Origin: Leptotrichia buccalis C-1013-b
Lineage (GTDB): Bacteria; Fusobacteriota; Fusobacteriia; Fusobacteriales; Leptotrichiaceae
NCBI RefSeq assembly: GCF_000023905.1
Contig: NC_013192.1
Location: 1,302,001 to 1,366,000, forward strand
DNA: 64,000 bases
Direction of reading: 5' to 3'
Shown here: positions 10,476-20,503 of the stretch, in pieces
Position numbering within the stretch: the stretch's first letter is position 1
How the letters are laid out: each line of letters opens with the position of its first letter
Made by a program: the position numbers and the translations under genes
The notes under the pieces: generated by a model
Told to the model about the DNA's origin: nothing
The model's input: the letters and a program-made list of their open reading frames with translations, nothing else
The model's database searches: none

Positions 10476-10901
10476 TTATTTTATTAAAATTATTATGCAT
10501 CCTATATAAATAAAATTTATGAATGTGCTTGCCAGCTTATCATAGCGTGTCCCTATTCTGCGGAACTGTTTAAACTTATTGAAAAAACATTCCACAAGAT
10601 GTCTTTCCTTGTAGATATGGTAATCGCATTCCCATTTGTTTACTGCATTTGACTTCGGAGGTATTACACATTCTCCCCCGTGTTTTCTTATGTACTCCCG
10701 AACTTCCTTTGTTCCGTATGCCTTGTCTGCCAGTATGTTGCTGTCTTTTATGCTTAGCTGCGACAATATTTTAATTGCTTGCGTACTATCGTGAATCTGT
10801 CCTGCACTAAGTTTTATATACAGCGGATTTCCAAGTCCATCAACAACTGCATGGATCTTAGTTGTCCTTCCACCTGAGCTTCTCCTGATGTGCTGATTCA
10901 C
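10476..10901 (-). CDS. IS5-family transposase, ORF B (catalytic part)
   Basis: This frame encodes about 141 residues with the DDE transposase core: GGRTTKIHAVVDGLG (first Asp region), ILADKAYGTKEVREY (second Asp) and the terminal block ERHLVECFFNKFKQFRRIGTRYDK carrying the catalytic Glu. It opens at a GTG at 10901, 4 bp inside ORF A, but no independent ribosome site is evident. In related elements the two parts are joined by -1 frameshifting; here an A6G3 run at 10916-10924 is the probable slip site, and upstream codons in this frame (KDSEVNQH) join smoothly with ORF A. Confidence 0.88.
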   Translation of the reverse strand: MNQHIRRSSGGRTTKIHAVVDGLGNPLYIKLSAGQIHDSTQAIKILSQLSIKDSNILADKAYGTKEVREYIRKHGGECVIPPKSNAVNKWECDYHIYKERHLVECFFNKFKQFRRIGTRYDKLASTFINFIYIGCIIILIK

Positions 10902-11242
10902 TTCTGAATCTTTTGCCCTTTTTTAGCTCCTGCACTGCTCTGGTGGGCTTTAACTACTGTAGAGTCAATGCTCAAGTTCTCATAGTCGGCATCTTCCCTT
11001 AAATGCTCAAATATTTTAAGCAGAGTCCCCTCGTCACGCCATTTGCAGAAACGAGAATAGACCGTCTTCCATGAACCGAAACGTTCAGGAAGGTCTCTCC
11101 AAGGTGCACCGCTGCAGGCAATCCATAGCACGGCATTAAACATCAGGCGTAAATCCTTGCCTGGACGTCCTGTTTTAGCTTTGGGAAACATATGCTTTAT
11201 TTTATTCCATTGTTCATCTGATATTTCATATCTTCTTTGCAT
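10898..11242 (-). CDS. IS5-family transposase, ORF A (N-terminal part)
   Basis: About 114 residues with the DUF4096-like N-terminal domain of IS5/IS427 transposases: RRYEISDEQWNKI, GRPGKDLRLMFNAVLWI, GAPWRDLPERFGSWKTVYSR, and the start of the catalytic domain at LSIDSTVVKAH, which holds the first Asp. An AGGAGG site precedes the ATG at 11242. The frame ends just after the A6G3 run at 10916-10924, so a full transposase requires a -1 shift into ORF B. Confidence 0.88.
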   Translation of the reverse strand: MQRRYEISDEQWNKIKHMFPKAKTGRPGKDLRLMFNAVLWIACSGAPWRDLPERFGSWKTVYSRFCKWRDEGTLLKIFEHLREDADYENLSIDSTVVKAHQSSAGAKKGQKIQK

Positions 11243-11325: not shown

Positions 11326-11369
11326 TAATCATTAAAAATATCATTGATTTTGAGTTTTCAGACACGCCC
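11326..11369. repeat. Terminal inverted repeat of the IS (upstream side)
   Basis: This is the 44-bp partner of 10425-10468. Its last base (G on the minus strand) together with the flanking TA forms the TAG stop codon of the upstream gene. Confidence 0.9.
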
Positions 11370-12223
11370 TAATCAAACATTCTTATTTTATCCAGATTTT
11401 TTTGAAATATTTTCTTATTATTATAAAAATCAGTTTTATTCGCCTTTGCCAGCTCCGATTTTATATACCAGTTTTGATACCTGTTGTAGTACAATATTTC
11501 TTCACTTGGCTTATTTTTTCCTTCAAAATTTTCATAATAAAAATCAATTGCATCCTGCGTACGATTCTCATTTAAATAAAAACTTATCGCAAACCATCCC
11601 ATCGTCAATTTGTATGCCCACGCCTGCTCATCAGAAATACGTGATTCTTCCGTTTTTGTTTTATCATCGCACATCTTCATAATAGAATTTAAACTTGCAA
11701 GTGCCGCTTTTTCATCGTTTTTCATAACATTCCAGATTGCATCTCTTCCTATCGTATATGTTACAGCAATTCTAGTGATTAGATAATCAGGGTATTCCCT
11801 TTTAAGTTTTTCATAATTTTTATCAAACGCTGCTGTATCTCCTTTGTTAGAATAATACATATTTGAAAAAAATAATTTTGACACTTCATAAGGATTGTAT
11901 TTTTCATACCGTTTCAAATTATTTAATTTTTCAGCCTCACTTTTTCCAAGTGCATTATAAATATTTATCAAATTTTCTGATAATACAAAATTCTTCTCAT
12001 TCTTTTTCAGCAATTCTTCAATTTTTAATGCCAATTTTTTTACTTTTTCCCTATCAGGTTCACTTACTACATTAGGTATTTCTTTATCCAGTTCTATTGT
12101 TTTTACTATTATTTCCTGAGAAACTCCTAATTTTGACAAATCCTGCCTTATCATTTCGCTTCGACTTTTAGCATTCATATTAACTGCTGCAAAAATACTC
12201 ATCAATAATATTATCTTCTTCAT
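11369..12223 (-). CDS. Exported hypothetical protein, helical repeat type
   Basis: A 284-residue protein that I do not recognise. The ATG at 12223 has an AGAAAGAGG site and starts a classic signal peptide (MKKIILLMSIFAAVNMNAKS), so I prefer it to an upstream start at 12265 without one. The mature part is almost entirely helical and aromatic-rich, with TPR-like helix pairs (for example YNPYEVSKLFFSNMYYSNKG and AWAYKLTMGWFAISFYLNE), suggesting a periplasmic binding scaffold. The stop codon is TA from the target site plus G from the IS end; without the IS the flanking bases read TAA, so the protein is unchanged by the insertion. It lies between hisH and hisA. Confidence 0.7.
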   Translation of the reverse strand: MKKIILLMSIFAAVNMNAKSRSEMIRQDLSKLGVSQEIIVKTIELDKEIPNVVSEPDREKVKKLALKIEELLKKNEKNFVLSENLINIYNALGKSEAEKLNNLKRYEKYNPYEVSKLFFSNMYYSNKGDTAAFDKNYEKLKREYPDYLITRIAVTYTIGRDAIWNVMKNDEKAALASLNSIMKMCDDKTKTEESRISDEQAWAYKLTMGWFAISFYLNENRTQDAIDFYYENFEGKNKPSEEILYYNRYQNWYIKSELAKANKTDFYNNKKIFQKNLDKIRMFD

Positions 12224-12308
12224 AAATACCTCTTTCTCAATTAAAAAATAAATTATCAAAACCAACCTAAAAATGAATAAATTAAGTAAAATAATTACAA
12301 TTTTACTT

Positions 12309-12938
12309 TTATTTTACTAATTCACCCCAGTTTTTCAATAGCTTTAATCCAGTATCTCCACTTTTTTCAGGATGAAACTGCATTCCATAGACATTTTCAT
12401 TTTTTACAATTCCAGGTATTTTTGTTCCGTACTCTGAATATGTAACAATGTTTTTCATATCAGTTTTTGCAAAATATGAATGAACATAATAAACATATTC
12501 ATTATTATCTACATCTTTTAAAATTTTATCATCCTTAAATCTCTCATTTATAATTAAACTATTCCATCCCATATGAGGTATTTTCAAATCAAAGTTTTCA
12601 GGAATATATTTTTTTATCTCCTCAACAGTTCCATTTATAAGCCCAAGTCCTTCATATTCACCATATTCATAACTTTTCTCAAAAAGCATCTGCATACCAA
12701 GACAAATTCCCAAAAAAGGCTTCCCTTTTTTCGCTTCACTTATCAAAGTCTCTTTTAGCCCATATTTTTCCAAATTCCCAATAGCATCTCTAAAAGCCCC
12801 GACTCCTGGCAATATTATCCCCTTAGCATTTTTTATCTCTTCAATATCATTAGTCAGTTTCGTATTCAGTCCGACATAGTTTAAAGAAGAAAGTAAGGAA
12901 AAAAGATTTCCTACTCCATAATCAATCACTGCTATCAT
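12309..12938 (-). CDS. hisH: Imidazole glycerol phosphate synthase, glutamine amidotransferase subunit
   Basis: HisH hydrolyses glutamine and passes ammonia to HisF. The 209-residue class I glutamine amidotransferase shows the triad clearly: the nucleophile Cys in FLGICLGMQMLF (about residue 79), and His and Glu in YGMQFHPEKSG near the C-terminus. The start IAVIDYGVGNLFSL and the oxyanion segment GIILPGVGAF are also diagnostic. AAAGGA precedes the ATG at 12938. A terminator lies about 140 bp upstream, so hisH probably has its own promoter instead of being read through from hisB. Confidence 0.95.
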   Translation of the reverse strand: MIAVIDYGVGNLFSLLSSLNYVGLNTKLTNDIEEIKNAKGIILPGVGAFRDAIGNLEKYGLKETLISEAKKGKPFLGICLGMQMLFEKSYEYGEYEGLGLINGTVEEIKKYIPENFDLKIPHMGWNSLIINERFKDDKILKDVDNNEYVYYVHSYFAKTDMKNIVTYSEYGTKIPGIVKNENVYGMQFHPEKSGDTGLKLLKNWGELVK

Positions 12939-13074
12939 AAGTAAAAAAATCCTTTCTATTTTATTGTTTGTTCATTTGTTATTTTTAATAATTTATTTAA
13001 ATACATTATACAATGTTATTTGAGAAAAAACAATAAATTTTCATCTTATGAACATATTGCAATTTATGAAACAA

Positions 13075-13098
13075 AAAAAATGCCTTATTATAGACATT
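13075..13098 (-). terminator. Rho-independent terminator upstream of hisH
   Basis: On the minus strand AATGTCT (13092-13098) pairs with AGGCATT (13079-13085), with one G-T pair, and is followed by a run of eight T. It would end transcripts coming from the Cas10 relic and the accessory island, separating hisB from hisH transcriptionally. Confidence 0.75.
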
Positions 13099-13115
13099 TT
13101 AATTTTAAAATATTA

Positions 13116-13144
13116 GTTTCCGTCTCCCCTCGGAGTATATAAAC
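13116..13144. repeat. Single CRISPR-repeat-like sequence
   Basis: A 29-bp segment begins GTTTCCGTCTCC, holds a short palindrome CTCC-CCTC-GGAG and ends ATATAAAC. A 5' GTTT, central GC-rich palindrome and 3' AAAC are the usual form of type I-B and type III CRISPR repeats, and its G+C content stands out from the surroundings. There is only one copy in the window, so this is not an array; it is at most a remnant. It lies about 60 bp downstream of the Cas10 relic. Confidence 0.4.
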
Positions 13145-13204
13145 CTACCTGCAATTAACCCCTTATTTTATGCTATGTTATTTGACTATTTGCGTAAGAC
13201 TTGC

Positions 13205-13544
13205 TTAAATTTTCAGTTTTCTTTTCCAAAAAGGTAAAAAATATGTTCTAAGTCCTATTTTACAGTATCGTGGCAATTTTATATGTTTATATGAAATAAT
13301 AATCTTCTCTCCTTCTTCTTTTATTCTTTCTACCCCTGATGCTATATTATCAGCTTCATAAACAATATATACTAAAGAATTATCATCTAATTTATTTAAT
13401 TTATTATTTTCTTCCATTTCTTCATTATAATGATACTTTATCATATCATAAATTTCTTTATATTTTTCTACATCTAGCAATTCTTATTTTTCCAATATCA
13501 TACAGCAAAGCTCCTATTTGAAGATTAATTAATTTCTCATCCAT
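13205..13544 (-). pseudogene. Relic of cas10/csm1 (type III-A CRISPR)
   Basis: Two overlapping frames on the minus strand match successive parts of the Cas10/Csm1 N-terminal HD region. From ATG 13544 the first reads MDEKLINLQIGALLYDIGKI, where functional proteins have LLHDIGK. The second, from 13480, reads IYDMIKYHYNEEM (normally YHH) followed by DDNSLVYIVYEADNIASGVER, a conserved Csm1 element. The frames are joined by a frameshift with loss of intervening sequence; both catalytic-type His positions are Tyr; the Palm/GGDD and C-terminal domains are missing. The last 30 or so residues are unrecognised. The family call rests on motif recall and should be confirmed. Confidence 0.6.
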
Positions 13545-13642
13545 ACTTTATTTTCTCCAACTTTCAAATTTATTTTTTTATTTATATCTATAAAATACAT
13601 TCTTTTTTCTGCTTCATAAAATCAATTATTTTTCACCATTTT

Positions 13643-15155
13643 TCACTCCACTTTAACTTTTTTCCCATAAAATGCCATTCCCATATACACAATTTCTTTT
13701 ACTCCTCTTTCTTTTAAAAGCACAGGATATTTCTTAATTTCAATTTGATTCAATGCTTCTTTTGATCTCTCTTCAAGTTCTTCTTCTGTTTTAGCCAGTT
13801 TAAACTCAAAAATATATCCTAAATTTCTTTTATTTATCGGCTCCAAAGCCAAATCGTTTCTTCCATACCCTGTTTCATTATTTGATAAAACTGTATATTC
13901 GCTGTCAAGATACAACATCATTCCTAAAATTAACGTATGATATGGTTTTTCTGTTTTAGAAGTATCATAATAGCTCATTGACACTAAAAATATTTCATTC
14001 AAAATTTCTTCAAATTTTTCAATTTCAAAATTTTTAAATGCTCTTATCATTTCTTTAAATCTGCTTGAACCTCCCAAATTATGGACAAACATATCTTTAA
14101 AAAACGTTTTTACTTCATAATTTGGCAATTTTAGGGCATATTCATTCATAGCCACTTTTTCCTCAACTGTCAAATATCCTCCAAACAAAAGTAATTGCCA
14201 TACTTCTTGCGGATCTTTCAACTTATCCATATTTGAGGAAGCTATAACAGTCTGTTCTGTCGTTCCGTTATTAAATAAATCTTTCAGCTCGTTAAACAGC
14301 TCTTTGTCTGAATTTTCTATTGCAGAATGTATAAGACTGTTATCCGACGTGTTTATCCAATATACATTAATCTCTTTTCGCTTCAAATAATTAAGAATGT
14401 TCCACGGATTGTATACTTGAACATTACCAAATTTATAGTCGTTATACTATTTTCTAACTTCTTCAATATTTTGACTTAATTCATAATATTCCAACGCCCT
14501 GTTTCACTTCATTATCCACTAATCCAAAATAGTCAGAAAAATCACTGTCTAAAACAGTGTAAACAGATAAATTATTAAGTCCAGAAAAAATCCCTTCTTT
14601 TACTACTCTAAGTATTCCAGTTACAACAGCGAACTGCAAATATTCATTATCCTTTAACGCATTTGAGTAAAAACTTTTAAAAAATCTTCATGCCTTTTCA
14701 TAATATCCCTCATTCCACGCACTTGTCATGGGAGTATCGTATTCATTTATTAGAATAATTACTTTTTTATCATACAAATCTGAAACAAGATTTTTAATAT
14801 TTGAAAAGCTATCTTCCCAACTTTCTGCTTCAGCATTTTTCATACTTATAAAAATCACTGGATTTTGTCCCTGATGTTCTATATACTCACTTTTAGAAAT
14901 ACACAGGTTCTCAAATAACTTTTTATTTTCTTCAGCATTTTCCAAATCAAAAAAGTATTTCAGCATTGACAAATTTAGGGTTTTTCCAAATCTTCTGGGC
15001 CTTGTAAATAATTTAAATTCTGATAAATCCTCTATTATTTCTTCTATAAATTTCATTTTGTCAATATAATAAGCATTTCATGTTATTATTTCCTTAAAAT
15101 CGGATTTTCCTATTGCTAGTCCTTTTTTCTTTTTTTTCATATTTTTTTCTTTCAT
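13643..15155 (-). pseudogene. Broken AAA-ATPase/PD-(D/E)XK nuclease gene (DUF1703 type)
   Basis: The intact family couples an N-terminal AAA-ATPase-like domain with a C-terminal PD-(D/E)XK nuclease-like domain. From ATG 15155 the pieces read: LAIGKSDFKEIIT, TGA at 15078-15080, then YYIDKMKFIEEI and the Walker-A-like RPRRFGKTLNLSM, IILINEYDTP, TGA at 14688-14690, FFKSFYSNALKDNEYLQFAV, an extra G at about 14496-14500 (GGG for GG) causing a frameshift, TAG at 14447-14449 in place of the Trp before YNDYKFG, then NPWNILNYL and the nuclease-like end (NDLALEPINKRNLGYIFEFKL). At least four lesions show the gene is dead. A fairly intact C-terminal 247 codons remain open. Confidence 0.85.
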
Positions 15156-15241
15156 AATTAATCCCTTTCTTTCCTTTTTTATTAATTGAACCATATCAAA
15201 AAATTAAACTGTTGCAATTCAGAAAATTATTATAAAATATA

Positions 15242-17527
15242 TTATTTTTCATTTTTATTCTTCTTGAAAAAGTCAAAGAATGTCTTTTTGTGTTCTAATT
15301 CTTTTGGAACAGGCACTCCTATCCAATCGTGAAATTCTTTTATCTTTATTTCAATAATATCGGAAGAATTATTATCATTTTTACACTTCTGCGACAATGC
15401 ATTCAAATATTTTATTGAAGGAAGAACTTTTGTGCCGTATCTATTGCTTTGAGCATCTTCACTATCCAGACTTTTCAATTTAAACAAATAAACAGATTTG
15501 TCTTCTTTTGGCTTAAAATCCCTGTAATTATATTCATACAGTTTTCTCCATAAAGATTGATTATTTTCTACAGTATCATCGTATCTCGTTTCAGGAAACC
15601 AAGCGGGAACTTCCATTTGAGCAATTTCAAAATATTCTTTAAAAATCTCACGGCTCCAGTAAAGAAAATCTATTAATCCTGTCGAAGAATGAAGCGAATA
15701 ATTTTTCCAGTTCAAGTTATCATCTGTCAATTTTTCTGCAAATCTAATTACAAAATCTTGAAAAAGAGTATCATTAACCATTTCAAGCACTTCTGTATAT
15801 GCTTTTACAGATTTTTTCTTGAGTTCTGTGTCAAAAACTTTGTCATTTTTTACATAATAGGATCTTCTTTGCGAACGTTGAGGCAACGAATATTCCAACG
15901 CATTTGTAGTTCCAATAAAGCATGGGGTAAAATCATAATTGGAAGTAGAAAGATTAGAAACATTGACAATCAGATTGTTTCCTCTGTCCTTATTTGAAAA
16001 AAATTCCTCGTCTATTTCATCAATTAAAATTGGAGCGACATTATTTTCACTCATCCATAATTGAATTTGAGTTATTGTATCAGCTTTTTTCGTTCTTCCT
16101 GTTGGAATAATGTTGTTATATAAAATAGGTTTTGATTTGGAAAGCCCCAGCATTTTTTGTAATATTTGCAGTAAATTACTTTTACCTGAACCCGCTGTCC
16201 CTCCTATAAAAAGAAACTGAGGAACATCCAATTTTTCAGAATCAGATTCAAGCTTAAATCTTATATCCTGAATAAAAGGCGAAGTAAAGGCATACAAAAT
16301 AATCTCAAGTATTCTTGAGCCGTAATTATCATTGTAATCAATAACATATTTTTTGTAATTATCAATTAATTTTATAATGCTTTCAACAGAGTTTTTTATT
16401 TCTTCCTTCCCAGCCTTCTGTCCAAAAGGTTTAGTGCCGCCATTTTCTTCAATATATAAGCCCGAACGGCCAAAACCACGATCCGTGTCTTTTGAAAACA
16501 GCAGTTCTCTTTCTGGAGTTGCTTGATTTAATCTCGCAGCAATTTTGACTTCCAATTTAGGCTTTATCTTTTTGGCAAATGTTTCAGGAGTTACAATCAA
16601 ACTTTCCTTCTTTTTAGCTTGTTTTGAAATAGTATTGACTGACAATTCGTAAGCAAATTTTTCAATTTCCACAGCTTCCTTTTGCTCATTTTCAATTATT
16701 CTATGTTTTTCATCAATTGTCTTTATCTCTTCAATTATAGGCAACGCAACCTCATCTTCTTGCTTGACGATAACTTCATTCAAATTTTTAATGACATCTT
16801 TTGAAATATCTATTTGTAATTTCGCACTTTCGTCATTGGTAAATTTTACAGAAAACATTTCTTCTTGATTTTTATCAATATTTTCATTCATAATTTTAAT
16901 CTTACTTTCTGCTTTTTTCTTTATTGCAGAAGTAATAAAATCTGTACAAGTCAAACTTATTTCGTCAAAATATTTTTCAAATTGATAGAATAACTGTGAA
17001 TTGTCAAAAATTATAATATTTTCAAACTGATTTCTTTTATTTGAAAAAGCCTGAAAAGATAAATTGGCTGACCCCAAAATCAGCCTTGTTTCAGAATCAT
17101 TTCTCAAAAGATAAAATTTACTATGAATTGTTGAATTTATCGGCACTCGTAATTTCCATTTCTCTTTAACAAAATTTTCCTGATTTTCCCTCGAAAGATT
17201 CTCAAAAAACTTAATCTGCTCCTTTTTTATAATCCGTTTCTGACTTTCAATCAGATTTCGCGTTTCATTTTTTAAAGCCATTATCCCTCTTGCCTGAACA
17301 TCAGTATCCTGTATCCCAATAATCAAGTCAACACTTCTAAATGGAGTTAAATATTTATTTAAAAAACTTTCCTCAGCAGAAAATGTAACTGCCTTTATCT
17401 CATAAAACCTATTGCTGTCAAAAATTTCTTCAATCGTCAAATTTACTCTTTCATGATTTAAAATAGTAAACAATGTATTTTTTTCTTTACTATTTTCATT
17501 AATATTTGTCGTTTCTTTTTCTTCCAT
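15242..17527 (-). CDS. Phospholipase D-like / AAA+ ATPase fusion protein
   Basis: A 761-residue cytosolic protein with two recognisable parts. Residues about 40-195 form a phospholipase D-like domain with a single HxK motif (IHSKFYLL, H135 and K137) followed by ILGSANLSFQAF (G152-N155), as in PLD nucleases that dimerise. A linker of about 230 charged residues follows. Residues about 435-600 form a P-loop domain: Walker A IGGTAGSGKSNLL (442-450), Walker B PILIDEIDEEFF (about 499-510), sensor-1 FIGTTNALE (N542) and arginines in SQRRSYY as candidate fingers. A further 160 residues follow. AAGGGAGA precedes the ATG. It is intact beside dead genes. I infer a role in DNA or nucleoprotein processing, perhaps defence; no precise family name is claimed. 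Confidence 0.8.
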   Translation of the reverse strand: MEEKETTNINENSKEKNTLFTILNHERVNLTIEEIFDSNRFYEIKAVTFSAEESFLNKYLTPFRSVDLIIGIQDTDVQARGIMALKNETRNLIESQKRIIKKEQIKFFENLSRENQENFVKEKWKLRVPINSTIHSKFYLLRNDSETRLILGSANLSFQAFSNKRNQFENIIIFDNSQLFYQFEKYFDEISLTCTDFITSAIKKKAESKIKIMNENIDKNQEEMFSVKFTNDESAKLQIDISKDVIKNLNEVIVKQEDEVALPIIEEIKTIDEKHRIIENEQKEAVEIEKFAYELSVNTISKQAKKKESLIVTPETFAKKIKPKLEVKIAARLNQATPERELLFSKDTDRGFGRSGLYIEENGGTKPFGQKAGKEEIKNSVESIIKLIDNYKKYVIDYNDNYGSRILEIILYAFTSPFIQDIRFKLESDSEKLDVPQFLFIGGTAGSGKSNLLQILQKMLGLSKSKPILYNNIIPTGRTKKADTITQIQLWMSENNVAPILIDEIDEEFFSNKDRGNNLIVNVSNLSTSNYDFTPCFIGTTNALEYSLPQRSQRRSYYVKNDKVFDTELKKKSVKAYTEVLEMVNDTLFQDFVIRFAEKLTDDNLNWKNYSLHSSTGLIDFLYWSREIFKEYFEIAQMEVPAWFPETRYDDTVENNQSLWRKLYEYNYRDFKPKEDKSVYLFKLKSLDSEDAQSNRYGTKVLPSIKYLNALSQKCKNDNNSSDIIEIKIKEFHDWIGVPVPKELEHKKTFFDFFKKNKNEK

Positions 17528-17617
17528 ATTTATAGTTTCTCCCTTTTGATTTAACCATTTTCCATTTTCAATAAGAATTTCGATTGTTTCTTGTATAAAT
17601 TAAAAACTTCTTTCCTA

Positions 17618-18208
17618 TTAAACCAAAACCCCTTTAGTCGAAGGAATCTCATCCTTATACTTTTCATCAATACTTACAGCCTCTGCCAAAGCTCTAGCAA
17701 CTCCTTTAAAAATCGACTCAATTATATGATGCGAATTTGTCCCAGCCATATTCTTTATATGCAATGTCGCATTCAAATGCCGTGTAAAGCCAATGAAAAA
17801 CTCTTCCACCAATTCTGTGTCAAAAGTCCCAACTTTTTCAGTCGGAATATTCACATCAAAATTCAAAAAATATCTCCCGCTTAAATCAACAGCAACTAAC
17901 GTCAGAGCCTCATCCATCGGCAAAAGAAAGTTCCCATACCTTCTCACACCCTTCAAGTCCTCTAACGCCTCATAAAAACATTTTCCCAATGCAATTCCAA
18001 TATCCTCCGTACTATGGTGATCATCCACCTGCGTATCCCCATCACAATAAACCTTCAAATCAAATCTCCCATGCTTCGCAAACAAGTCAAGCATATGGTC
18101 CAAAAATCCAACCCCTGTATTATTTTCATATTTCCCAGTTCCATCAATATTTAATTCAACTTTTATTTTTGTTTCAAATGTATTTCTTTCAATTTTAGAT
18201 TTTCTCAT
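17618..18208 (-). CDS. hisB: Imidazoleglycerol-phosphate dehydratase
   Basis: HisB dehydrates imidazole glycerol phosphate to imidazole acetol phosphate. The 196-residue monofunctional enzyme shows the paired metal-binding His motifs: GVGFLDHMLDLFAKHG, DDHHSTEDIGIALG, GFTRHLNATLHI and NSHHIIESIFKGVARAL. No phosphatase domain is attached, consistent with the separate PHP-type hisJ. AAAGGA precedes the ATG at 18208. The PLD-ATPase gene follows 90 bp downstream, and the Lon-like gene and an opposing small gene separate it from hisC. Confidence 0.97.
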   Translation of the reverse strand: MRKSKIERNTFETKIKVELNIDGTGKYENNTGVGFLDHMLDLFAKHGRFDLKVYCDGDTQVDDHHSTEDIGIALGKCFYEALEDLKGVRRYGNFLLPMDEALTLVAVDLSGRYFLNFDVNIPTEKVGTFDTELVEEFFIGFTRHLNATLHIKNMAGTNSHHIIESIFKGVARALAEAVSIDEKYKDEIPSTKGVLV

Positions 18209-18799: not shown

Positions 18800-20425
18800 T
18801 TATATATTTTTTAATATTTCAAAAACTTCTTTATAATCGCTGACCAAGTGCACTTTGATGTCTTCTAATATTTTCTTATCAATTCTTAATAGCTGTGCTT
18901 CATTTTCCTTAGGAATTATAAAGTTTCTTATTCCTGCTTTGTAGCCACCTTCAATTTTTGAAGTAACTCCGCCTATTGCTAAAATTTCACCACTAAGAGT
19001 AATTTCACCTGTAAAACCTGTATCTTGCCTAATTTCCAATTTTGTCAATGCAGAAAGAATCGCTGTTGTTATAGCTATTCCAGCAGAAGGCCCATCTTTT
19101 GGAATACTGTTGTCATCAAAATGAATATGAATGTCTTGATTATAATAAAAATCTTTATTTTTTATGCCAAAAGTATCACAATTTGCTCTAATGTATGTTA
19201 TTGCAACTTCTATGCCCTCTTTTATTACAGAAGATAAATTTCCAGTAACTTTTTTCTCGCCTTTTCCTTCTATTACAACAGCTTCGATTGGAAGTATACG
19301 ACCACCAAGAGAATTTACTCCCAATCCCATAACTTTTCCAATTCGGCTTTTATTTCTATCAGGAATCATAATGTTATTAGTTGGTATTTTATTTGCTGTT
19401 ATATATTCTTCAATATTTTCAAGGGTAATCTTTTTAAATTTCTTTTTTTCTAATTTATTTTTTATTATTTTCCCATAAATTTTTTTTAAAATTAATTTTA
19501 GTTTTCTAACCCCGTCTTCTAATGTGTAATTTTCAATAATATATTTTAACACATCTTCGGTCAAATTAAAATTTTTAGCACCAACTTGTAAATTTAATTC
19601 AGGAATTATATAATTTTGAGCTATAATTATTTTTTCTTCAACACTATAGCTGTCAAGGGTAATAACTTCCATTCTACTAAGCAGGGGTTTAGAAATTTTT
19701 TCTAAATAATTTGCTGTAGCGATGAACATTATATTTGATAAATCATATTCTATTTCCAAATATTCATCTCTAAATCTTTTATTATCATCAGGATCTAATA
19801 TTTCCAATAAAATTCCTTGAATATCTCCATTTGTTTTATTTTCTGAAACTTTGTCAATTTCGTCTAACAAAATTACAGGATTATCGCATCTTAATTTTGC
19901 TAAAGCCTTTATAATTCTTCCTGGCATAGCAGAAGTATAAGATTTTGAGAGTCCATTCAATTCAAATCCTGAATTAATTCCACTTATTGAAATTTTTTCA
20001 AATTTTCTTCCCAATGCTTCTGCAATTGATAAAACAAGAGAGGTTTTACCAATACCAGCACCGCCTGTCAGACACAGAATAGTAGGATTTTTTTTACCTT
20101 TGCTATATTTTTTTATATGCTCTAATAATACTAGATTTTCTATAATTGTTTCTTTTACTCTGTCCATTCCATAATGATTTTTATTTAAAAGCTCTCTCAA
20201 TTTAGTAATATTTAATTTTGCTTCTTCTGTATTTTTTCCCCATTGCAATTCGTCCAAAATTAATCTTAGATATTTTTCACATTTCACTTTTCGCGAGGGA
20301 TCTAAATTTTTCTCTTCTAATTCATTGATATACTGTTCTACATTTAATTTTGCCTCAAGACTAATATTCAAATTTTTTAACTGTTCTCTTTTTTTCTCAA
20401 TTTCTTTTTTTATATCCGACATCAT
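18800..20425 (-). CDS. Lon-type AAA+ protease lacking the N-terminal substrate domain
   Basis: About 541 residues against roughly 770-800 for classical Lon. The LAN substrate-binding domain is missing, while the helical bundle before the ATPase remains (DELQWGKN, NKNHYGMDRVKE). The AAA+ module has Walker A LTGGAGIGKTSL, Walker B ILLDEIDKV and FIATANYLEKI. The protease domain has catalytic Ser in PKDGPSAGIAI and Lys in GGVTSKIEGGY, spaced 43 residues apart as in E. coli Lon (S679/K722), so it should be active. ATG 20425 follows AAAGG; a GTG at 20434 is the alternative. It separates hisC from hisB. A dedicated role distinct from housekeeping Lon is inferred. Confidence 0.85.
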   Translation of the reverse strand: MMSDIKKEIEKKREQLKNLNISLEAKLNVEQYINELEEKNLDPSRKVKCEKYLRLILDELQWGKNTEEAKLNITKLRELLNKNHYGMDRVKETIIENLVLLEHIKKYSKGKKNPTILCLTGGAGIGKTSLVLSIAEALGRKFEKISISGINSGFELNGLSKSYTSAMPGRIIKALAKLRCDNPVILLDEIDKVSENKTNGDIQGILLEILDPDDNKRFRDEYLEIEYDLSNIMFIATANYLEKISKPLLSRMEVITLDSYSVEEKIIIAQNYIIPELNLQVGAKNFNLTEDVLKYIIENYTLEDGVRKLKLILKKIYGKIIKNKLEKKKFKKITLENIEEYITANKIPTNNIMIPDRNKSRIGKVMGLGVNSLGGRILPIEAVVIEGKGEKKVTGNLSSVIKEGIEVAITYIRANCDTFGIKNKDFYYNQDIHIHFDDNSIPKDGPSAGIAITTAILSALTKLEIRQDTGFTGEITLSGEILAIGGVTSKIEGGYKAGIRNFIIPKENEAQLLRIDKKILEDIKVHLVSDYKEVFEILKNI

Positions 20426-20503
20426 CCTTAACACCTTTCATACGATTAGAATAGCAAAACTTCTATCAAAATAAAAAACAAAATTTAATCTTTATTCTAA
20501 ATT

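Follow-up and report, generated by a model that had tools for sequence, protein, structure and literature searches.

Restriction systems commonly rely on phospholipase D (PLD, HKD) nucleases that are either fused to SF2 helicases or paired with them. HKD–ATPase fusions are common in defence, and those described use SF2 helicases or BrxL (PMC12839542). The type IV ATP-dependent restriction endonuclease SauUSI combines an N-terminal single-HxK PLD nuclease, a linker and a helicase-like ATPase in one chain, and its PLD domains dimerise (PMC7913695); the ATPase belongs to SF2 and is accompanied by a coupler and an SRA-type target recognition domain. In the BrxL-HKD of type 1 BREX, an AAA+ ATPase is fused to an HKD DNase located at its C-terminus, and a variant with a K-to-R change (HRD) was described and argued to be possibly still active (PMC12839542). 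PLD nuclease domains are also found in the R proteins of NgoAVII and CglI and in DISARM DrmC; these systems include a methyltransferase, and their ATPase is a protein of its own. The Cch and Cch2 helicases are distant homologues of the self-loading SaPI replication helicases (PMC7581432), and the D5/SF3 fusions described so far are those with primases and polymerases (PMC10853773). A literature search found no paper describing a PLD domain fused to a Cch/Rep-type AAA+ ATPase.

A PLD–AAA+ fusion with an ATPase apparently of this kind is encoded in the window, that is, the whole stretch of 64,000 nucleotides of Leptotrichia buccalis DNA analysed here. The first-pass annotation, made from the sequence alone, had described the gene as an intact fusion of 761 residues and as a candidate undescribed defence protein. 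The integrity of the gene was confirmed: a single uninterrupted ORF of 761 codons starting with ATG is located on the minus strand, and the plus strand of the same interval (15242–17527) contains 32 stops. The features of the gene and its product are as follows:

15242..17527, minus strand: PLD–AAA+ fusion gene, an intact ATG ORF of 761 aa with full-length homologues in 5 other intact Leptotrichia genomes
16883..17476, minus strand: PLD/HKD nuclease-type domain, residues about 18–215, as predicted by PLDc_2, RE_NgoFVII and the Foldseek match to R.NgoAVII
17117..17125, minus strand: HxK motif H135-S136-K137, with H and K kept in 19/19 proteins outside the Limosilactobacillus core lineage
17063..17074, minus strand: GSAN motif, residues 152–155 (G152-S153-A154-N155), with N155 kept in the same 19/19
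16433..16882, minus strand: charged, helical, weakly conserved linker, residues 216–365, with low pLDDT at 218–276, 300–314 and 327–339 and poor alignment across the family
15608..16432, minus strand: predicted AAA+ ATPase module, residues 366–640, Cch/SF3-helicase-like according to the predicted model and its matches to PDB folds
16178..16201, minus strand: Walker A, residues 443–450, with G448 and K449 invariant in 67/67 proteins
16016..16033, minus strand: Walker B, residues 499–504 (PILIDE), with D503 in 67/67; residue 504 is E in 64 and D in 3
15902..15904, minus strand: sensor-1 (motif C) N542, 67/67
15863..15868, minus strand: R554 and R555, candidate arginine finger (RRxYY), with R555 in 67/67 and R554 in 63/67
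15308..15607, minus strand: conserved C-terminal domain, residues 641–740, with invariant P641, W660 and L711, modelled together with the AAA+ module
15245..15283, minus strand: C-terminal basic-aromatic tail, residues 749–761 (TFFDFFKKNKNEK); a similar tail ends most members

The PLD and AAA+ motifs named at first reading were all located, and nearly all were conserved across the nine family members aligned first, among which L. fermentum has R in place of K137. The dN/dS values for the Leptotrichia copies were 0.055 for the PLD domain, 0.078 for the linker, 0.029 for the AAA+ module and 0.044 for the C-terminal domain. Since the ratio is 0.03–0.08 in every domain, the Leptotrichia gene is under purifying selection, which rules out a dead gene. 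A promoter and terminator scan revealed no promoters above chance. Homologues were found in Fusobacteria, Bacillota, Campylobacterota, Thermotogota and other groups; none of them is characterised, and annotated records name the family generically (‘phospholipase D family protein’, ‘ATP-binding protein’).

In the PLD part of the window protein, the Pfam families PLDc_2 (E 3.2e-10, residues 60–190) and RE_NgoFVII (E 3.8e-6) were above the cut-off, and RE_NgoFVII also matched 9/14 diverse family members. Foldseek with the whole model gave R.NgoAVII (4rct, E 5.7e-5) as the top PDB match, and SauUSI was among the matches too. The DrmC and REase_II models also recognised the PLD part, the DrmC similarity being weak and limited to this part. 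The PADLOC model ZacB matched with E 5e-6 and covered the PLD domain alone; a literature search found no paper describing ZacB. A PDB sequence search with the single sequence gave no match, and the profile gave weak matches only. Taken together, the family and fold matches group the PLD part with restriction nucleases (NgoFVII/NgoAVII/SauUSI) rather than with lipid enzymes.

The linker, previously put at 230 residues, comes to about 150, as conservation of the AAA+ module already sets in near residue 366. The AAA+ module and the C-terminal domain were modelled with a pLDDT of 86 and a pTM of 0.87. The best PDB match of the AAA+ model was the SCCmec Cch helicase (5dgk, E 4.9e-5, TM 0.47, 11% identity), followed, among other AAA+ proteins, by PriRep1, SV40 LTag and AsfvPrimPol; generic AAA+ proteins scored only slightly below Cch in this search. 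D5-type primase-helicases dominated the whole-protein matches in the viral library. Phage DNA primase families matched two of the 14 members, both distant ones (best E 5.7e-6), and DUF5906 and VapE-like families appeared in single members only at E about 0.01. No Pfam AAA family was above the cut-off for the ATPase part of the window protein. These matches allow us to assume, with moderate confidence, that the ATPase module is Cch/SF3-helicase-like.

A comparison with the described systems shows both likeness and difference in each case. The fusion shares with SauUSI the single chain, the N-terminal single-HxK PLD nuclease, the linker and the helicase-like ATPase; however, its ATPase is an AAA+ one with one P-loop and without a Pfam match to an SF2 helicase, and no SRA-type domain, nor any other target-recognition or DNA-binding domain, was found among the Pfam matches listed for 14 members. 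With BrxL-HKD, it has in common the fusion of an AAA+ ATPase to an HKD DNase domain, but the PLD domain is N-terminal here; in addition, the PADLOC BrxL models gave no match at E<=0.1 in 14 members, and no BREX genes were recognised at the loci read. The likeness to NgoAVII, CglI and DISARM concerns the type of PLD domain, and no drmA, drmB or methylase gene of DISARM lies beside the window gene. SCCmec Cch, SaPI Rep and D5/SF3 proteins provide the best ATPase fold match, though a moderate one, and the Walker A, Walker B, motif-C Asn and Arg are present; the known fusions of these helicases do not involve a PLD nuclease (PMC10853773). The earlier statement that the fusion cannot be placed in any described system holds for Pfam, NCBIfam and PADLOC, where described systems match its PLD part only.

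We tentatively propose, giving the idea slightly less than an even chance, that this is a single-component enzyme of the mobile/defence type that uses ATP to process DNA, associates with the membrane and was domesticated in Limosilactobacillus. Its architecture is the one shown above: an N-terminal PLD-type nuclease domain, a flexible helical linker, an AAA+ ATPase probably of the Cch/SaPI-Rep/SF3 kind, a small C-terminal domain and a short, putatively amphipathic tail. The ATPase would form a ring that binds DNA and moves or opens it, the PLD domains would pair as in SauUSI and BfiI to create active sites for cutting the DNA delivered by the ring, and the tail would probably hold the protein at the membrane. 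Nuclease competence, and hence cutting, is expected of the Leptotrichia copy because its active site is complete; this copy is an optional cargo, probably acquired horizontally, and most likely acts on foreign or mobile DNA, in a role either against mobile DNA or within it. The moderate Cch/SF3 match, the missing Pfam AAA hit, the ordinary hydrophobic moment of the tail in most members, the lack of a recognised DNA-binding domain and the loss of PLD residues from a core gene speak against this proposal.

To evaluate the distribution of the family, genome contigs were scanned; the single sequence found nothing, and the alignment-based scan revealed 22 loci. The gene is carried by seven of the 13 Leptotrichia species genomes. 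One of these copies is split by stops and frame changes (G001:C1:1119275-1121540), which indicates that the gene can be lost there. A homologue is present in one Fusobacteriaceae-like genome of the same order (G070), in 7/31 Anaerococcus, in 1/104 Arcobacteraceae (plus one fragment) and in about 5/239 other Lactobacillaceae (two broken, one weak); further homologues were found on contigs of Neobacillus, Athalassotoga, Gracilibacteria, Desulfobacterota and Dehalococcoidia. A tree built from the ATPase part places the Leptotrichia copies among singletons from Lactobacillales, with long branches and an uncertain exact sister, and this grouping points to horizontal transfer. In Limosilactobacillus, 50 of the 51 species have the gene, compared with 21/51 for the type I restriction subunit HsdR_N (Fisher p 9e-11).

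The fate of the active site differs between this core lineage and the rest of the family. H135, K137 and N155 are intact together in all 19 members outside the lineage, and only one of the 48 Limosilactobacillus proteins keeps the three. K137 is changed in 43/48 (R in 37, H in 5, Q in 1), H135 is Y in 8/48 and N155 is D in 23/48; according to the tree, H135Y arose at least 2 times and the N155 site changed at least 8 times. By analogy with the HRD variant of BrxL-HKD, the K-to-R change alone may leave activity, and 22/48 copies pass when H, K/R and N are scored as competent. Residues G448, K449, D503, E504, N542 and R555 never vary in those Limosilactobacillus proteins. Since PLD residues have been lost from the core gene, cutting would not be what keeps it in Limosilactobacillus; with the ATPase motifs invariant, it is more likely that the gene is retained there through the ATPase and tail rather than the nuclease. 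Under the proposed DNA-processing function, the same gene would have become fixed in this genus and, its nuclease site having decayed repeatedly, would now work mainly via the ATPase and tail. The first-pass annotation had held that a housekeeping setting, the loss of HxK residues or a confident match to a characterised non-defence family would argue against defence. The first two were observed in one genus, as an ordinary chromosomal setting in 50/51 Limosilactobacillus species and as HxK loss with the ATPase kept, and no confident match to such a family was found.

The tails of most members are short, basic and aromatic: FFDFFKKNKNEK in the window protein and GFFKKIFY, GWWKRLW and RWWGRLFKR elsewhere. 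The Limosilactobacillus tail, KKGFWARLFG, hardly varies at the protein level, although its codons do. Across 46 Limosilactobacillus proteins, FWARLFG is invariant save for W-to-F in two, 2–6 different codons are used at most of its positions, and the stretch preceding position -14 is close to random (entropy of about 3 bits per site). The short C-terminal motif is under selection in Limosilactobacillus, because the protein is invariant despite varied codons and near-random preceding residues. Compared by eye only, it closely resembles the membrane-targeting sequence of E. coli MinD, KGFLKRLFGG (PMC5471200), although MinD belongs to another ATPase family. MinD was also sought as a yardstick, and none was above the cut-off in either of the two genomes checked. 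The description of the tail as a strong amphipathic helix was not supported for most members, in which its helical hydrophobic moment is not outstanding. We infer from the motif that the tail probably holds the protein at the membrane.

The family offers a natural experiment, in which catalytically complete accessory copies can be compared with a core-gene lineage with a decayed nuclease and a fixed ATPase and tail, and the separate role of each part is directly testable in genetically tractable probiotic species. A broader idea, which we regard as speculative and rather doubtful, is that these proteins represent a new class of membrane-tethered PLD–AAA+ machines. A mobile, nuclease-active form would spread across phyla, and the core form of Limosilactobacillus (including L. 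reuteri and L. fermentum) would keep the helicase-type ATPase and the MinD-like anchor and give up the nuclease, thereby becoming a cellular membrane-based DNA-handling ATPase.

Besides the proposed DNA-processing enzyme, a dedicated stand-alone anti-phage defence was considered, in which the ATPase would detect phage DNA or load onto it and leave the cutting to the PLD domain; we judge this unlikely on balance. The gene was initially assigned to a typical defence-type neighbourhood with two dead genes, and its neighbours are as follows:

17618..18208, minus strand: hisB, co-oriented, 90 bp upstream of the fusion gene
13643..15056, minus strand: broken AAA-ATPase_like/PDDEXK_9 gene, not in the system; intact in five other Leptotrichia loci (L014, L016–L019)
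13205..13480, minus strand: Cas10/Csm1 fragment of 91 aa, not in the system; it clusters with the 894-aa Cas10 of L014

Both genes are indeed dead: the former consists of an AAA-ATPase_like fragment (14688–15056) and a PDDEXK_9 fragment (13643–14386), and the latter groups with a Cas10/Csm1 that is still intact at this site in the closest relative. The assignment of the neighbourhood was not borne out, as the Leptotrichia gene sits among his genes and an intact CRISPR occurs only in that relative; in all seven Leptotrichia carriers, the gene is situated in the interval from hisB to hisH or at another place in the same his-gene run. An association of homologues with defence genes stands for some sporadic copies and fails for the core copies of Limosilactobacillus, where the gene is solitary and genes for a secreted non-specific endonuclease, a permease and an alpha/beta hydrolase are commonly found next to it. 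Copies lie near a type III R-M methyltransferase and a UvrD-type helicase (Athalassotoga plasmid, L012), type II methyltransferases (Anaerococcus, L021), Cas9 (L091), Csx1-CARF and SF1 helicase genes (L063, in G070) and the intact type III CRISPR (L014), a raw tally without a matched control set. These settings, the patchy distribution outside Limosilactobacillus, the nuclease type of the PLD domain and the frequency of HKD–ATPase fusions in defence (PMC12839542) are consistent with such a role. However, the gene has no fixed partner, has a his-operon setting in Leptotrichia, is absent from the phage records and IMG/VR contigs searched, and has become more of a core gene than HsdR in Limosilactobacillus while its nuclease site eroded. 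The copy beside Cas9 (L091:2612-5056, genome G126) is a second, divergent full-length copy with intact HxK...N, in a Limosilactobacillus that has a core copy too.

It is improbable that the protein is a replication or maintenance protein of mobile elements left in chromosomes, i.e., a Rep-like helicase in which a PLD nickase replaces the primase or HUH domain. Its ATPase comes nearest to Cch of SCCmec and Rep of SaPI, both of them replication helicases (PMC7581432), and the Arcobacter and Athalassotoga copies are plasmid-borne, the former adjoining parAB and rep/dnaB-like genes. In addition, a sliding-clamp-type N-terminal motif (QLSLF, QMDLF, QTSLF twice and QTSLL) was found in five of the 19 listed proteins outside the Limosilactobacillus core, against about 0.1 expected from shuffles. 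On the other hand, these plasmids have rep genes besides the fusion gene, the majority of copies are single chromosomal genes for which the neighbour tables showed neither an integrase nor an origin (gene tables rather than origin or iteron scans), and fixation in 50/51 species with purifying selection does not suit such a protein. The clamp-type motif lies ahead of the PLD domain in the L039, L120, L031, L037 and L091 homologues and is missing from the window copy and the Limosilactobacillus core copies seen.

A membrane-lipid enzyme, whose tail-anchored PLD domain would act on phospholipids such as cardiolipin with the AAA+ ring driving or gating it, is very improbable: the membrane-anchor-like tail, the best PDB sequence match of the profile (mitochondrial cardiolipin hydrolase, only E 0.02) and the fixation in one genus, which suits a housekeeping role, are outweighed by the recognition of the PLD part by nuclease models, the helicase type of the ATPase and the loss of the catalytic histidine in 8/48 core copies.

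The hisB–hisH interval is a variable site in Leptotrichia, because species without the gene carry an unrelated ATPase gene or none there, and a role in the his operon was rejected for the same reason. Depending on the species, the interval (12938–17618 in the window) contains the PLD–AAA+ gene, AAA-ATPase_like/PDDEXK_9, a DNA-alkylation-repair gene, a DUF4143-type ATPase or an intact type III CRISPR. In the closest relative, the intact Cas10/Csm1 gene (L014:16013-18697) adjoins the fusion gene. A two-gene system with AAA-ATPase_like/PDDEXK_9 was also rejected; this gene adjoins six of the seven Leptotrichia copies (broken in the window) and is absent beside L015, and no counterpart of it was seen in the neighbour tables of loci outside Leptotrichia. 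A Lon_C protease with an AAA domain (544 aa, 18800–20434) is located between hisB and hisC in the window, and none of the other Leptotrichia his regions compared contains a homologue. A transposase apparently split in two ORFs (10476–11242) lies between hisA and the gene at 11369–12265.
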